In this document: piece by piece, positions 33,193 through 41,076 of the stretch
Layout of the letters: every line of letters starts with the position of its first letter
Position numbering within the stretch: position 1 is the stretch's first letter
Assembly (NCBI RefSeq): GCF_001423965.1
Contig: NZ_LMPV01000001.1
Location: 819,908-883,907 of the forward strand
DNA from: Exiguobacterium sp. Leaf196
GTDB lineage: Bacteria > Bacillota > Bacilli > Exiguobacteriales > Exiguobacteriaceae
Direction: 5' to 3'
DNA: 64,000 bases
Notes under the pieces: model-generated
What the model saw: the letters and a program-made list of their open reading frames with translations, nothing else
Databases searched by the model: none
Told to the model about the DNA's origin: nothing
Program-made: the position numbers and the translations under genes

Positions 33193-34245
33193 TTAACGCC
33201 ATGTCTGAAGTGTATTTGCAAACTGGATGGTCGTCTCAAGTTCTCCTGTGATTTCACTTGCTGTAAAGTCATTGCCGGCAAGCCAGTCAGCAAAGTCGAA
33301 CGTGACCGGTTCCTGATCACCACCGAGCGCGAACCATACCTTTAACTCTTCCGGGAAGTAGGCAGACGTATGGATCGTTCCTGCCCACTGCGCATACAAA
33401 TCAGCAAAGACACCTTTATCGGTATCATTCAGGAGTCGAAAAGCAGACTCTGCATCTTGAATCATATGTTGATGTGTCTTTAGCTCCATCATCCGACGTT
33501 TTGAGTCATCCAGGTGATAGCGGTTTTCGTGCTGTAGCAAATCGAAGTGATTGGTACACATGTTCGATTCCCGCACTTGGACGTCGCGTGCCGTCGCCTC
33601 GATGACAAACGAACGCGCGGATTTATCGTGGACGACGTACGTGAACGATCCGCGATGAGGAATCTCTTTGACGAGTGAGATCGCATCGTCGACCGACGTA
33701 CACATCTCGAGGATGATCCGTCCGATCATGAAGCTGACGAATCCATCTCCCGGCCGCCGACGATTGATGAAGTTATAACCCATCGCAAGACCATGTTCGT
33801 TCATCCCGTCCATTCGACCGGTCACCCGAGATGCCGGGCCGATGATCGCTGAACCGCCATCGTTCGGTTGAAAGACGGAAAATCGTCCGTCGTACGTCAT
33901 CGGATGATAATCATAATTGCGAACGAGAAAATTATCACCGGTCATGATCGAACAACCACTTTTAGGACCTTCAACACGGTAATGTCCGAAATGGAGTAAG
34001 GTGTCTGGTAATGATAGTTCGAGTTCGTCTTGCAGTCCGAGCAACTCGTCCCAGATGTGCGGAGCATACCGAAGGAACATCTCCTTCGTCTCGACCGGAT
34101 CGACTTGAAAGCGAGGAACACGGATTTTCCAGTTGTCCTCTCGGTTATGGAGCAACTGATTTCGTTTGACGTAACGCCCTTGTTCGCGACCGAACTCATA
34201 ATGACTGCCGCGGAATTGCGTGATTTCATTGGCTACTCGTTGCAT
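33193..34245 (-). CDS. C45-family acyltransferase/hydrolase-like protein
   Basis: 350 residues from ATG 34245, chosen because AAAGGA lies eight bases upstream; the ATG at 34254 abuts that site. It is an Ntn-hydrolase of the acyl-CoA:6-APA acyltransferase (AAT) type. The putative nucleophile is Cys in [20 protein letters not shown] (about residue 97), followed by [17 protein letters not shown]. Relatives mature by self-cleavage before this Cys. The natural substrate is unknown. Confidence 0.8.
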
Positions 34246-34360
34246 GGGACTCATCCTTTCTTCAACTGCTGTATGCTGATTATATCGAACGCAAGGGAGA
34301 AAGTCGTATGGCAAGTCTTTACTAAAGCACATCTAAAGTATGGGAATATTGAAAAAATAG

Positions 34361-34387
34361 TCAACTTTTTCAATCCTGAACCGATAA
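34361..34387 (+). promoter_or_regulatory. SigD-like motility promoter
   Basis: TCAA (34361) and ACCGATAA (34380-34387) with a 15-base spacer, close to the SigD consensus TAAA-N15-GCCGATAW, 20 bases before the chemoreceptor start. Confidence 0.6.
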
Positions 34388-34407
34388 CAAAAACGGGAGG
34401 GGATGGA

Positions 34408-36114
34408 ATGAAACATATGTCAGTCAGACGGAAGATACAAGCTTTGATCGCAACAGCCGTCGTTGCGATGCTACTCATTGCGGGAGCAGGACTCTATTTC
34501 TTGAACCAGATGTCAAACGCTTCCCGAGCGATGTATCAGGAGAACTTGATTCCGATCCAAGAAGTGGCACAGATTCGGATCGATACACGGGCTCTCGATT
34601 CCTTTTTAGTGGAGATGATCCTAACGAAGGATGAAGCACGAATCACGGAACTCCAAGCCGATATCGATACGCGACAGGCTCAGATTCGGTCGTCGGTCAC
34701 GAAGGTTGAAAAAACGGGACAATTTGATGCGCGAGAAAAGAAACAACTCGAGGAGTTGAAGGATAATGTCCTCGCCTACGACAACTCGATGACGCTCGTT
34801 CAAGATGCGGCGACACGAAATGAAGAGGAAGAAGCCTACACGGCGTATTCCGATGGTTTGGAACAAATCCGGGATAACGTCGCGAACTCGGCAAAAGCAT
34901 TAATGGCCTCAATGACGAAACAAGCGAAGATGTTAGATGCCCAGAATCAAGCGGAAAAACAAACCGCCTTTTACTTAATGCTCGGTATCTTTTTACTGGC
35001 GGTCCTCTTGTTTGCAGGACTTGCCTTATACATCACACGTCTCATCACACGTCCGATTCGTCAACTGCAGGGTTGGATGAATCAGTCAGGTAAAGGTGAC
35101 TTGACTGTCCGAGGTCACTATGATTCGAAAGACGAACTTGGTCAATTGACGACATCGTTTAATGAAATGATCGCCTCACAACAACAAGTCGTCCTTGAAC
35201 TTACGGGAACGGCAGACCGCGTCGCCGTTGCGTCGGATGAGCTTAGCGTCAATGCGGAATCAACGACGAAAGCGACAGAGATGGTCGCTGTGACGATGGA
35301 AGAGATGGCAAGCGGTGCAAGTCAACAGCTGCATCAAGTGTCCGATGCTTCACGGACGATTGAAGAGTTGACGACGTCCGTCCGCTACGTCGCCGGCAAT
35401 GCGCAACAGATGACGGAACGGACGGCGGACGCGATGGAAAAAGTCGCACTCGGGGGGAAGGTCGTCGGATCACTCGGAACGCAGATGGGACGTATTCAAG
35501 AAGACGTGTCGCGTCTCAGCCAAGTCATTGATGGTCTTGGCAACCGATCACAGGAAATCGGTCAAATCACGGATTCGATCAAAGGTGTCGCGGCACAGAC
35601 GAACCTCCTCGCTTTAAACGCAGCAATCGAGGCAGCACGCGCTGGTGAACAAGGACGCGGATTTGCCGTCGTCGCAGCGGAAGTCAAGACGCTTGCGGAA
35701 CAATCGGCGGTCTCGGCAAAACAGATCGAGTCCTTGATTCGGGTCATCCAACAAGAGACAGAAGCATCGGTCGCCTCGATGGAGAAGGTCTCGACCGAGA
35801 TGACGAGCGGGATTGCCGTCGTCGATCAGGCAGGGACATCCTTCTCGGAAATCGAGACAGCGATCACCGACGTGACAGGGCACGTCGAAGAAGTGTCCGG
35901 CGCCGTTCAGGAAATGGCGGCAGCGAGTGAACAAATCGCTTCTGTCATGCGGACGATTCAAGCGGTGACGGAAGGAACCGCTGCCGGGACACAAAACATC
36001 TCCGCTTCGACCGAGGAGCAGATGGCGTCGATGGAAGAAATTTCGTCTGCATCGCAATCGCTCGCGACGATGGCGGATGATTTAAAACAAGTCACAGGCA
36101 GATTCAGCGTGTAA
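34408..36114 (+). CDS. Transmembrane methyl-accepting chemotaxis protein
   Basis: 568 residues from the ATG after GGGAGGGG; earlier in-frame codons are antisense to the C45 gene. TM1 (about 12-33), an extracellular four-helix-bundle sensor (about 34-185), TM2 (about 187-210, [20 protein letters not shown]), HAMP (about 212-265) and a signalling domain with tip [20 protein letters not shown] near 391-410. It senses small molecules outside and signals to CheA. Confidence 0.93.
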
Positions 36115-36256: not shown

Positions 36257-36760
36257 TTATGAAAGTGATTGAAGAAACTGTTTGACAGCGCGGCGGGACC
36301 GCAAATGAACGATTTGTTTATCGGACGTCGCTTTAAGCGTTGAAAGGATACTCGGTCGCTTATCGATCGGAAACCGCCAAATCCATTTCAGAAAATCAAG
36401 CGACAGTTTCTCGGGACAGCCTGCCGCCATATCCGGTCGGCCGGTCTTACGATAGCGCAAGGTCCGTTTCAGCGCACGGTACAGACAAAGCGTCCGCGGC
36501 AGATCAAGGAAGATGACCGTATCAGCGGCATCGATTCGTAAGTCAAGCGTTCCACCGTAATTACCGTCGATGATCCATGGATCACGCGATATGAGTGTTT
36601 GTTGAATCTGGCGTTGTTCCTCACGCGAAACCGCCTCCCAGTTCGGACGCCACAATAAGCTGTCGAGGTGATCAACGGGATAACTTAGTTTTTTGCCCAT
36701 CTCGCGGGCAAGCGTCGATTTACCGGACCCACCAGAACCAATCAGGATGATTTTTCGCAT
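36257..36760 (-). CDS. P-loop nucleotide kinase, FlaR/topology-modulation type
   Basis: 167 residues from the second of two tandem ATGs, six bases after AGGAGG. The P-loop GSGGSGKST lies at about 8-16. DHLDSLLWRPNWE, IIDGNYGGTLDLRI and VIFLDLPRTLCLYRALKR are typical of the small adenylate-kinase-like FlaR/YqaC proteins. The phosphate acceptor is not established for this family. It is monocistronic. Confidence 0.85.
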   Translation of the reverse strand: MRKIILIGSGGSGKSTLAREMGKKLSYPVDHLDSLLWRPNWEAVSREEQRQIQQTLISRDPWIIDGNYGGTLDLRIDAADTVIFLDLPRTLCLYRALKRTLRYRKTGRPDMAAGCPEKLSLDFLKWIWRFPIDKRPSILSTLKATSDKQIVHLRSRRAVKQFLQSLS

Positions 36761-36897
36761 CATAGACCTCCTATTTTTTGTCATAGGAATTGATCATATC
36801 ACGGTTTTCTAGTCGAGGATAGAACGAAAGGAGTGAATGAGATGGTACCAAATTTCATAATCGAAGGGATGACGATTGTTTTTCTATTTCTCTTACT

Positions 36898-37197
36898 GGG
36901 ATGCAGAACAAGCGTATCTGAAACAAAGCTTTATGAATCGGTGTCGGGTTATCTTGAGCAGCTTTTGTGACATTCGTAAACAGCAGTTAAGTGATATATA
37001 ACTAAGCGATACAACTGATGACATATTCAAGAGGAGCGGGGTCGTCACGAGCCAGTCGATGTAGAGGATTTCAGTCAGAAAGCCATCAATTTTCGATAAT
37101 GATCCGGAGTCACCAACGGCTTGTTTCATGAAATAGCAACTGACGATACAAACTTCAGCCACCACTTCGAAACGCTCTAGATGTGCTTTCTATCAAC
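36898..37197 (-). pseudogene. Decayed bacterial rhodopsin gene
   Basis: Leftward, residues YFMKQAVGDSGSLSKIDGF and then YIDWLVTTPLLL (37063-37028) reproduce the helix B-C region of Exiguobacterium-type proton-pump rhodopsin, including the DW of the acceptor site. The Arg normally before YIDW is Leu. In another frame from 37025, YVISCIA*LYIT*LLFTNVTKAA then NPTPIHKALFQIRLF matches the helix E-F region, with stops at 37004-37002 and 36989-36987. Helices A, D and G (retinal Lys) are missing. It is clearly non-functional. Confidence 0.85.
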
Positions 37198-37237
37198 GTT
37201 TTGAAAACATTTTGACACACTTGAGGAGGAATGACGG

Positions 37238-37678
37238 ATGCCAATTAAACGAACGGATCATATCAGTCTGAACGTCGTGAACCTAGAAGAAGCGATTCAC
37301 TTTTTTTCGCTTTGCGGGCTCGAAGTACGTGGACGATGGGAAATGGAAGGGAAGTTGCTCGATCGTTTGTTGAATCTAGACGGGGCAAAGACGGAATGTG
37401 TCGCTCTTGGGTTACCAGGTGAAGCAATCTGGCTCGAACTGGTTCGGTTCAAACGACCAGTTGAGACGTCCACTGTCGTTCAGCACGTTTATTCCAGTGG
37501 ATTGCGTCATCTCTGTTTTGAAGTGACAAGACTCGATACAATCCTCGAACGGTTAGCGAATCATGGATATCAACCGATTGGGGAAGTCGCGAATTACGAA
37601 AATGAGTATCGCCTATGTTACGTAAGAGGACCTGAAGGTGTGATCATAGAGCTAGCAGAAAAAATCGATTCCGTATAA
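37238..37678 (+). CDS. VOC / glyoxalase-family protein
   Basis: 146 residues: DHISLNVVNLEEAIHFFSLCGLEV at the N-terminus (written in part), SGLRHLCFEVTRLD in the second half and RGPEGVIIELAE at the C-terminus with the metal Glu. It is a typical two-module VOC metalloenzyme of unknown substrate. GAGGAGG precedes the ATG. Its upstream region abuts the rhodopsin relic. Confidence 0.88.
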   Translation: MPIKRTDHISLNVVNLEEAIHFFSLCGLEVRGRWEMEGKLLDRLLNLDGAKTECVALGLPGEAIWLELVRFKRPVETSTVVQHVYSSGLRHLCFEVTRLDTILERLANHGYQPIGEVANYENEYRLCYVRGPEGVIIELAEKIDSV

Positions 37679-37697
37679 ACACGGGATCGATTTTTTA
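37661..37697 (+). terminator. Intrinsic terminator overlapping the VOC stop
   Basis: AAAATCGATTCCGT pairs with ACGGGATCGATTTT (one G-T) and is followed by T. The stem starts inside the last codons. Confidence 0.85.
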
Positions 37698-37701
37698 TTT
37701 C

Positions 37702-37729
37702 TTGTTGTATAACCAAATGGTTATATTAT
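37702..37729 (+). promoter_or_regulatory. ars promoter and ArsR operator
   Basis: TTGTTG (37702) and TATTAT (37724) flank the inverted repeat TATAACCA-AA-TGGTTATA (37708-37725), which fills the spacer. This is a typical placement for ArsR repression relieved by arsenite. Confidence 0.7.
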
Positions 37730-37757
37730 ATCCTGATGAAGAAAGGACGGGAAACTC

Positions 37758-38087
37758 ATGACACGATTTGATCCAGAAATAGAAACGATGAGTCAGTATC
37801 TCAAAGGGTTAAGTGATCCGGTACGGCTGGATATCTTACGTCGATTACAGGTGCGCGAACACTGTGTCTGTGATTTGACCGCAGCATTCGATATTTCACA
37901 ACCCGCGATCAGTCGACATTTAAAACGACTTCGAGAACAAGCGATCATCTCCGAACGCCGCGATCGGCAATGGATCTATTATCGCTTAAATCGGGAACAT
38001 CCTTATTACGGTCAACTGGAATGGATGCTAAGACGGCTGGATACAGCAGATGTGCGCTCCAGTTCCTGTACCGTATTAGAAATCTAA
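37758..38087 (+). CDS. arsR: Arsenical-resistance repressor ArsR
   Basis: 109 residues, winged helix with the ArsR metal-binding motif EHCVCDL (Cys36, Cys38) at the start of the recognition region, followed by FDISQPAISRHLKRLREQAI. As(III)/Sb(III) binding releases DNA. It starts the operon with arsB 10 bases downstream. A third cysteine, as in some ArsR proteins, may be Cys104 near the C-terminus. Confidence 0.93.
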   Translation: MTRFDPEIETMSQYLKGLSDPVRLDILRRLQVREHCVCDLTAAFDISQPAISRHLKRLREQAIISERRDRQWIYYRLNREHPYYGQLEWMLRRLDTADVRSSSCTVLEI

Positions 38088-38097
38088 CAGAAATGAA

Positions 38098-39402
38098 GTG
38101 AATCAATTGACAGCATCACAATGGCTTGCGATCGGAATATTTCTGATCACCTTATTTTTGATCATCAAACAACCGAAAGGGCTAGGTATCGGATACTCAG
38201 CGATCGGGATGGCGATTGTCGCGCTTTTAACGGGCGTTGTCGAACTGGGAGACGTCGCGACCGTCTGGGGGATCATCTGGAACGCGACGTTCACCTTCAT
38301 CGCCTTGATCGTCATCTCATTGATCTTAGATGAGATCGGCTTCTTTGAATGGGCCGCGTTACATATGGCCCGAATCGCCCGCGGTGGCGGTCTTAAACTA
38401 TTCATCTACATGACGTTACTCGGTGCCCTTGTCTCGGCCTTGTTCGCGAATGATGGGGCTGCCTTGATTCTGACACCGATCGTCCTCGCGATGGTCCGTC
38501 ACTTGAAGTTACCGGATGCGGTCGTCCTGGCATATGTCTTCGCCTCCGGCTTTATCGCCGACACGGCAAGTCTTCCGTTCGTCATCTCGAACCTCGTCAA
38601 CATCGTCTCGGCGGACTTCTTTCACATCGGTTTTACAGAGTATGCGGCACGGATGGTCTTCGTCAACGTCTTTTCGGTCGCTGGTAGTCTGCTTGTCTTG
38701 TACTTCTATTTCAAGAAGCAGATCCCGAAAGTCTATGCCGTCGAGGATTTGGCGAATCCGACGTCTGCGATTCGCGATATGCGGATGTTCCGTGCTTCAT
38801 GGATCGTCCTTGGCTTGTTGCTCGTCGGGTACTTTACGAGTGATGCGATCGGCATTCCGGTCAGTCTCGTTGCTGGCATCATCGCCGTCTTTTTCTTATT
38901 CCTGGCGCAAAAATCACCGAGTGTCCCGACGAAGAAGGTCCTTGCCGGTGCCCCGTGGGCGATCGTCTTCTTCTCACTCGGTATGTATATCGTCGTCTAC
39001 GATCTGCGCAATGCGGGACTGACTCAAGTCCTTGCGGAGTTGATCGAGTGGATGGCGACGAACCTCGTATCGGCGACGTTTGGAATGGGCTTCCTTGCCG
39101 CTCTGTTGTCTTCTGTCATGAACAATATGCCGACCGTCATGATCAATGCGTTATCAATCGAGCATACGGCAACGACGGGAGCGATTCGTGACGCCTTAAT
39201 CTACGCAAACGTCATCGGGAGCGATCTCGGTCCAAAGATCACACCGATCGGAAGCCTTGCAACCTTACTGTGGCTCCATGTCTTGCGCTCAAAAGGGGTC
39301 CGGATCGGTTGGGGACAATATTTTAAAATCGGTACCGTTTTGACGATTCCGACGCTCGCCATTGCGTTGCTCGGACTCTACATCAGTTTATTACTCTATT
39401 AA
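38098..39402 (+). CDS. arsB: Arsenite efflux permease ArsB
   Basis: 434 residues with about 12 helices, of the ArsB/NhaD ion transporter family. LFANDGAALILTPIVLAM and SSVMNNMPTVMINALSIEH are the hallmark re-entrant segments. It expels As(OH)3/Sb(OH)3 with the proton gradient. The GTG start at 38098 has only a weak ribosome binding site, so translation may be coupled to arsR. No arsA ATPase is present. Confidence 0.93.
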   Translation: MNQLTASQWLAIGIFLITLFLIIKQPKGLGIGYSAIGMAIVALLTGVVELGDVATVWGIIWNATFTFIALIVISLILDEIGFFEWAALHMARIARGGGLKLFIYMTLLGALVSALFANDGAALILTPIVLAMVRHLKLPDAVVLAYVFASGFIADTASLPFVISNLVNIVSADFFHIGFTEYAARMVFVNVFSVAGSLLVLYFYFKKQIPKVYAVEDLANPTSAIRDMRMFRASWIVLGLLLVGYFTSDAIGIPVSLVAGIIAVFFLFLAQKSPSVPTKKVLAGAPWAIVFFSLGMYIVVYDLRNAGLTQVLAELIEWMATNLVSATFGMGFLAALLSSVMNNMPTVMINALSIEHTATTGAIRDALIYANVIGSDLGPKITPIGSLATLLWLHVLRSKGVRIGWGQYFKIGTVLTIPTLAIALLGLYISLLLY

Positions 39403-39417
39403 GAGGAGGACATGAAT

Positions 39418-41076
39418 ATGGCGAAACTACTTATCATCGGCTCGATCGCTGCCGGCACATCAGTTGGGGCGAAGGCACGCCGTAATAGCGAAGACTTAGA
39501 GATCACGATCTACGACCGGGACGAGGACATTTCCTATTCCGGTTGTGGGATTCCCTATTTCGTCGGCGGTGAAGTCGCTGAGCTCGATGAATTGACGCCA
39601 CGCGACGCAGCGTTCTTCAAGAAACGTTACAACATCGACGTTAAGACGCGTCATAACGTCGAAGCGATTGATCACGAGACGAAGACAGCGACGATCCGTC
39701 ATCTGGATTCGAGTGAGACATTCACGGATACGTACGATACGCTCGTTTTCGCGACTGGTGCCTCTAGCATCATTCCGCCGCTACCGGGCGTCGATCTCGA
39801 AAACGTCTTCCCGGTCCGTAACATCCGTAATGCAGATGCGATTCGTCGGTACGTCGACGCGCAAGCTCCAAAACGTGCTGTCATCGTCGGCGGTGGATTC
39901 ATCGGACTCGAGATGGCGGAACAGTTGACATATCGCGGAATCGAAGTGACACTCGTCGAACGGTTGGCGCAAGTCATGCCACCGCTAGACGTTGATATGG
40001 CAAAACGCGTTAGTGACCATCTTGAAGCGAACGGCGTCATCTTGCGACTCGGTGAGTCCGTCGCTTCGTTCGAAGGGGAGAAAACGGCTCGTGCAGTCGT
40101 TCTTGCAAGTGGCGAGACGATCGAGACGGATCTCGTCATCCTGTCAGTCGGTGTCAAACCAAACACGCAACTCGCACAAGAGATCGGTGTGACGATCGGG
40201 CAGACGGGTGCGATCGCCGTCAATCGACAGATGCAGACGAACATCGAAGGCGTTTATGCGGTCGGCGATGTCGCCGAGAGCTTTTCGCTCATCACCGGTC
40301 AACCCCTTTACCGCCCGCTTGGTTCGACGGCGAACAAGATGGGGCGGATTGCTGGGATGGTCATCACCGGTGAAGCGATTGAACACCGGGGAATCCTTGG
40401 AACGGGAATTTTTAAAGCATTCGATTTGACGGTCGCCCAGACCGGATTGACTGAAAAAGAAGCCCGCGACGCCGGGTATGATATCGAAGTGTTACACAAC
40501 ATCAAGCCGGATCGCCCGGAATATCTCGGCGGGAAAGAAATGGTCATCAAGGCGATTGCAGATCGGAACGATGGTCGTGTCCTCGGTGCCCAAATCGTTG
40601 GTCCGCAAGGGGTCGATAAACGGATTGATGTCCTTGCGACCGCAATCAGCTTCAAGGCAAAAGCGGAAGACTTATTCCATCTTGATCTGGCCTATGCGCC
40701 GCCATTCTCGACGACGAAGGACCCCATTCTTTACACCGGGATGGCCCTCGATAACGCGATCAAACGAACGGCCCGTCTGAAAACACCGAATGCTTTGATG
40801 GAAGAGGTCGCTAAGGGTCAGGTCTTCCAAATCATCGATACGCGCTCACGCGCTCAGTTCGAGAAGAGTCATGTCGACGGGGCAATCCATATTCCGCTCG
40901 GTGAGTTACGTGAGCGGGCGCAGGAACTTGATCCGACGGTACCGACAATCGTTTACTGCAATAAAGGTGTCACAGGAAACGCGGCACAGAACGTCTTGAA
41001 GAATCTCGGGTTCAGGGACGTCTGTAACTTATCCGGTGGCAATCAAAACTATCAACACATCAAGTCATGTCTCTGA
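39418..41076 (+). CDS. CoA-disulfide reductase with C-terminal rhodanese domain
   Basis: 552 residues from the ATG eight bases after AGGAGG. The FAD/NAD(P) disulfide reductase core (1-440) starts GSIAAGTSVGAKARR and has the single active Cys43 in SYSGCGIPYFVGG. The rhodanese domain (about 460-552) has Cys in VYCNKGVTG (about 514). It matches Bacillus CoADR-RHD proteins, which reduce CoA disulfide or persulfides. Its place in the ars operon suggests thiol redox support during arsenite stress. Confidence 0.9.
   Translation: MAKLLIIGSIAAGTSVGAKARRNSEDLEITIYDRDEDISYSGCGIPYFVGGEVAELDELTPRDAAFFKKRYNIDVKTRHNVEAIDHETKTATIRHLDSSETFTDTYDTLVFATGASSIIPPLPGVDLENVFPVRNIRNADAIRRYVDAQAPKRAVIVGGGFIGLEMAEQLTYRGIEVTLVERLAQVMPPLDVDMAKRVSDHLEANGVILRLGESVASFEGEKTARAVVLASGETIETDLVILSVGVKPNTQLAQEIGVTIGQTGAIAVNRQMQTNIEGVYAVGDVAESFSLITGQPLYRPLGSTANKMGRIAGMVITGEAIEHRGILGTGIFKAFDLTVAQTGLTEKEARDAGYDIEVLHNIKPDRPEYLGGKEMVIKAIADRNDGRVLGAQIVGPQGVDKRIDVLATAISFKAKAEDLFHLDLAYAPPFSTTKDPILYTGMALDNAIKRTARLKTPNALMEEVAKGQVFQIIDTRSRAQFEKSHVDGAIHIPLGELRERAQELDPTVPTIVYCNKGVTGNAAQNVLKNLGFRDVCNLSGGNQNYQHIKSCL

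Follow-up and report, generated by a model that had tools for sequence, protein, structure and literature searches.

The closest described system is the rhodopsin of Exiguobacterium sibiricum (ESR), a light-driven proton pump in which Lys96 replaces the usual carboxyl donor, according to the part of the source available to us (PMC4585134). Regarding loss of such pumps, repeated loss in one group of haloarchaea has been deduced by mapping where the pump is present or absent onto an RNA polymerase tree (PMC1885257, available portion), and regarding retinal, the accessible sections of PMC7734400 describe one bacterium that lacks blh and makes retinal by an unknown route and another that pumps only when retinal is supplied. 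Among the matches listed in a search of the open-licence literature, titles and abstract openings held no report of a rhodopsin pseudogene in Exiguobacterium.

Investigation of the window (the whole stretch of 64,000 nucleotides analysed here, from Exiguobacterium sp. Leaf196, genome G000) revealed a rhodopsin pseudogene of the ESR type on the minus strand at 36906-37139, in two surviving pieces. The locus is almost certainly what is left of a single Exiguobacterium rhodopsin gene of this type, encoding a light-driven proton pump, that became a pseudogene and decayed at its ancestral site. The first-pass annotation had likewise read it as the relic of a rhodopsin gene and as the loss of this copy of phototrophy, an interpretation supported by synteny, by the lesions and by the lack of a second intact copy. 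The nearest intact locus, that of G017, served as the reference for gap lengths, and each of the three gaps may represent one event or several. The features are as follows.

36257..36784, minus strand: P-loop kinase-like gene, intact, syntenic marker
36842..36970, plus strand: small membrane-protein gene, truncated, 42 aa (end read by eye)
36905..36906, minus strand: junction 3, a 580-bp gap against G017 that removes codons 187-248 (Lys225 among them), the stop codon and the bulk of the small convergent gene
36906..37026, minus strand: second rhodopsin remnant (piece 2), from helix E to helix F, codons 147-186, in another frame than piece 1; 80% DNA identity to G017 over 121 bp
37026..37027, minus strand: junction 2, a 154-bp gap against G017 covering codons 95-146; 1 modulo 3, hence a frame change
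37027..37139, minus strand: first rhodopsin remnant (piece 1), from the end of helix B to helix C, codons 58-94; 91% DNA identity to G017 over 113 bp
37139..37140, minus strand: junction 1, a 223-bp gap against G017 that removes the start codon along with helix A and the larger part of helix B
37140..37237, minus strand: conserved spacer, lying upstream both of the divergent VOC gene and of the rhodopsin start that is now lost
37238..37678, plus strand: VOC/glyoxalase-like gene, intact, syntenic marker on the other side

Regarding the identity of the pieces, blastn of the spacer against G017 gave E = 1.9e-39 for piece 1 and E = 5.4e-25 for piece 2, at the identities and lengths listed. An open reading frame of 90 aa with a GTG start (36893-37165) spans both pieces and was matched by phmmer to the PDB chain 4hyj_A ('Rhodopsin') at E = 2.8e-13 and by the Pfam model Bac_rhodopsin (PF01036) at E = 5.9e-4 over 40 residues (13-52), with a score of 19.8 bits that lies under the curated cut-off of 24.6. 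As judged from these alignments, the homology of both pieces to rhodopsins is far beyond chance. Among solved structures 4hyj is the closest, and its matched part (residues 51-95) is identical letter for letter to the E. sibiricum 255-15 protein, in agreement with the earlier naming of the E. sibiricum proton pump as the best match. Membership of another protein family in frame was also considered and rejected, Bac_rhodopsin being the sole Pfam match of the 90-aa frame at E 0.001. The first-pass annotation had recognized rhodopsin pieces in two frames of the minus strand (YFMKQAVGDSGSLSKIDGF...YIDWLVTTPLLL in one, LLFTNVTKAAQDNPTPIHKALFQIRLF in the other), and had placed a deletion and a change of frame between them, where the 154-bp gap was found; its placement was right, with the limits of the pieces now corrected to 37027-37139 and 36906-37026.

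The spacer between the kinase-like and VOC genes measures 1410 bp in G017 vs 453 bp in the window, and the gaps of 223, 154 and 580 bp, 957 bp together, account for the whole difference. In place of seven helices in one frame, codons 58-94 and 147-186 alone remain, in two frames, the helix boundaries being placed on the relic where we take them to lie in rhodopsins. Lys225, presumably the helix G lysine that binds retinal, is absent together with codons 187-248, and in piece 1 both Pro78 and Arg82 are changed to Leu and Asp85 is retained; the earlier observations that an Arg had become Leu and that the retinal-lysine helix was gone correspond to Arg82 and to these missing codons. Piece 2 is broken by nonsense codons at two places, Trp154 (TAG) and residue 159 (TAA), so that the description of the relic as interrupted by stops holds for the E-F piece but not for the B-C piece, which itself has none. 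Arg82, Trp154 and Lys225 are invariant in seven aligned intact proteins, six from named records and one from G001. With its three gaps and changed frame, its two nonsense codons and the loss of the retinal lysine, the remnant would be unable to encode the pump. Microhomology at the three junctions amounts to 0-1 base as read by eye, and no repeat-mediated mechanism is therefore claimed for them.

The substitutions of the relic look unconstrained. In its 77 surviving codons, private changes number 16 nonsynonymous (nonsense included) and 8 synonymous, vs 7 and 28 in the same codons of seven intact genes pooled (one-sided Fisher p = 3.9e-4), and dN to G017 is 0.102 for the relic vs 0.023-0.028 for the six other intact genes. 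By base, 15 of the 24 private changes are G/C to A/T, 5 are the reverse and 4 are neither. These counts bear on the very improbable alternative that the 90-aa chimeric frame is a new small membrane protein made from rhodopsin pieces and held under selection. The frame at 36893-37165 is indeed open and keeps the helix B-C piece, and a residual peptide would be possible from its sequence alone; however, the corresponding DNA is deleted in the conspecific genome G011, the spacer has the relic form in G000 only among 19 genomes, and the 16:8 ratio was obtained in the rhodopsin frames. Moreover, no clear ribosome-binding site was seen by eye before the GTG, and a simple scan of 36780-37300 detected no promoter-like or terminator-like site, a weakly informative result since shuffled sequences averaged 1.3 and 0.3 such sites.

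Regarding the neighbourhood, an intact rhodopsin gene between the same kinase-like and VOC genes was found, when sought there in relatives as the first-pass annotation had proposed, in seven close relatives of the same clade (G001, G002, G003, G007, G010, G016, and G017). In named records, an intact gene lies within 10 kb of the same C45-type gene in E. indicum HHS 31, an uncultured Exiguobacterium assembly, E. undae DSM 14481, Exiguobacterium sp. KRL4, E. antarcticum DSM 14480, and E. sibiricum 255-15; rhodopsin was absent from the C45-neighbour stretches of sp. s193, sp. RIT594 and one further assembly. The spacer at 37140-37237 is conserved at 87-94% identity over 92-99 bp in six other genomes including G011, and at 84-87% over 69 bp in G003 and G010; these 98 bp may have been kept because they also serve the divergent VOC gene. 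The small convergent membrane-protein gene is intact in G011 and mostly lost in the window with the third gap; the first ~21 codons of its truncated form are homologous to the intact 140-aa G011 neighbour, after which the rhodopsin relic is read through to a stop. No structured RNA was detected in 36700-37300 at Rfam gathering scores.

Several further observations concern the same region. In the window at 33193-36114, the C45/AAT-type gene (minus strand) overlaps a chemoreceptor reading frame that starts with TTG, and the true chemoreceptor start is probably an internal ATG past the overlap. Compared with G017, the spacer is 179 bp longer in G016 and 218 bp longer in G002 owing to an insert with inverted ends (GGGGCTGACTCAAAAG...TTTTTTTGAGTCAGC) that directly follows the rhodopsin stop codon; situated in the interval that separates rhodopsin from the small convergent gene, this insert resembles a small mobile or repeat element and is apparently non-coding. 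In G011 (L097:6322-9067), ~2.4 kb separate the VOC gene from a divergent arsR that is ~60% identical to the arsR of the window, and the interval contains a flavoprotein-like gene, a MarR-like regulator and an acetyltransferase-like gene (names assigned by eye); the arsenic locus thus differs between the strains.

Presence and absence were compared in a genus sample of 19 genomes, that of the window and 18 others. A rhodopsin gene without internal stop was detected in 12 of the 19, and an intact one is lacking in G000, its conspecific G011, G006, G008, G013, G014, and G015. The search of the window's genome for another rhodopsin, which the first-pass annotation had also suggested, gave no match at E 0.001 with the same model that detects the gene in the 12 genomes; the relic itself falls below that threshold, so the result applies to an intact second gene and fragments could be missed. 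The lost copy appears to have been the only rhodopsin copy of this genome. That the relic is an artefact of assembly or sequencing in a strain with an intact rhodopsin has a negligible probability: the strain is represented by one assembly, in 13 contigs, which leaves some room for error, but the 24 private substitutions within the pieces are not producible by a misjoin, the genes around it (kinase, VOC, arsR and arsB) all have open frames and match Pfam models (the kinase under curated cut-offs), and the genome is rated 100% complete with no other rhodopsin match.

On an rpoB tree of the 19 genomes, presence and absence of rhodopsin require five changes, at least four of them forced by well-supported branches, a count that does not register the separateness of the deletions in G000 and G011. 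G013 and G014 share a clean gap that has the same boundary in both genomes on either side, which probably reflects one loss; the rhodopsin-bearing G009 is placed beside G013 on this tree with low support (50/20). In G008, a different reading frame lies between the chemoreceptor and acetyltransferase genes. The syntenic stretches of G013, G014, G008 and G015 contain no rhodopsin remnant above chance (best E 0.21), and G006 gave no match to the rhodopsin model, to the spacer of the window or to the C45-type neighbour. In G008, G015 and G006, the gene may have been lost or never have been present.

The unexpected part of the result is the differently built relic of G011, the other genome assigned to the same species, which is a single contig. 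This strain retains codons 1-16, interrupted by TAG at codon 12, and codons 226-248; everything between is gone through a 627-bp in-frame deletion at an 11-bp direct repeat. The repeat, GGTCGGATTCG, lies in intact genes in helix A (Trp-Val-Gly-Phe) and in helix G (Lys-Val-Gly-Phe), its copies lying 627 bp apart. Among exact direct repeats with copies at least 50 bp apart, the G017 reading frame contains none that is longer; its 11 bases are exact in G017 and G003 and have at least one mismatch in the other five. In the 38 full codons of the G011 relic, private changes are 6:1 nonsynonymous to synonymous vs 5:6 in intact genes (p = 0.11, not significant alone), and the constraint test with both relics combined gives p = 1.1e-4. 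Since each relic holds codons that are missing from the other, neither descends from the other and their last common form was longer than both.

Regarding the timing of decay, the two relics together have 22 nonsynonymous changes vs 10.6 expected if constraint had ended at the split of the strains (p = 0.0014 with the median dS of the flanking genes, nonsynonymous sites being taken by assumption as 78%); the same test gives p = 0.04 with the VOC gene as clock and p = 0.72 with the fastest flanking gene. The dS of the relic to G017 is 0.43, about twice that of VOC, arsB and CoADR (0.22-0.25), which makes any clock doubtful, and there is only a hint that the end of constraint is older than the split of the two strains. 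The first-pass annotation had held the copy to be lost recently; its loss stands, but little of the gene survives, dN to the nearest intact copy amounts to 0.102, and the loss of constraint may predate the strain split.

The flanking genes point to different nearest relatives. Outside the species, VOC is nearest to G017 (dS 0.225 vs at least 0.63), the kinase-like gene is nearest to G002, G001 and G016 (dS 0.35-0.40 vs 0.46 to G017), whereas by rpoB the species falls with G003 and G010. Values for MCP, obtained from an incorrect frame, do not enter the dN/dS comparisons. This conflict indicates that the locus (window 36257-41076) is mosaic, with recombination near the relic, and either relic may accordingly have been imported. 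That both strains received already broken alleles by recombination from other lineages, with no decay in place, would agree with the mosaic but is unlikely: no donor was found, 12 of the 17 genomes outside the species have an intact gene, and among those without one, the syntenic stretches of G008, G013, G014 and G015 hold no remnant above the level of chance and G006 has no match to the spacer. Under decay in place, the reading preferred here, point mutations would have accumulated once the gene was no longer useful, and each strain lineage would then have lost different segments.

Regarding the supply of retinal, the RPE65-type carotenoid oxygenase (PF03055) was not detected in any of the 19 genus genomes, and two of 14 control genomes matched. 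For the blh-type enzyme (PF15461), none of the 19 has a match over the curated cut-off, and the single genus match, in G011 (E = 7.8e-4), is under the cut-off and has two internal stops; across 200 genomes of the class, this model gave two matches, both under the cut-off, and none in the 14 controls, so that it lacks a positive control and its negative outcome in the genus weighs little. Matches to SQS_PSY (phytoene-synthase type) were found in all 19 genomes. The 12 genomes with an intact rhodopsin are thus likewise without a PF03055 match and without a PF15461 match above the cut-off. As the genus yielded no known retinal-making enzyme, its pump may rely on scavenged retinal, and a pump that needs outside retinal would presumably be easy to lose. 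Tentatively, and with rather less than even confidence in the whole, we suggest that constraint lapsed in the shared ancestor of the two strains, when the gene was longer than either relic, that the strain lineages then erased different parts, in one case at the helix A/G repeat, and that the loss of a pump that may depend on scavenged retinal may track habitats without it.

Thus, this is an ordinary event, a well-documented decay of a known gene family and no new system. As a rule, the loss of rhodopsin phototrophy is deduced from the gene not being there; here it is seen mid-decay at its ancestral site, and intact orthologues in sister species with two non-nested relics in one species form a natural comparison, which could ask why a heterotroph retains or loses a proton pump encoded by a single gene and whether the supply of retinal is decisive. 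Like the bacteria of PMC7734400, Exiguobacterium has rhodopsins for which no known retinal synthesis gene was found, but that study, as far as its available text extends, concerns working rhodopsins and not relics, and its main text does not name Exiguobacterium. The relic resembles ESR in being the remnant of an orthologue from the same genus and the same neighbourhood, with 4hyj as its best solved-structure match. It differs from ESR, as the available part of PMC4585134 describes it, in that codons 1-57, 95-146 and 187-248 are gone and with them the start, His57, Lys96 and Lys225; it further differs in the change of Arg82 to Leu, the two nonsense codons and the frame change. As in the haloarchaea (PMC1885257, available portion, in whose main text the word 'pseudogene' does not occur), pump loss in Exiguobacterium appears patchy and repeated; unlike in the haloarchaea, the decaying gene is visible at the orthologous site, in two states within one species.
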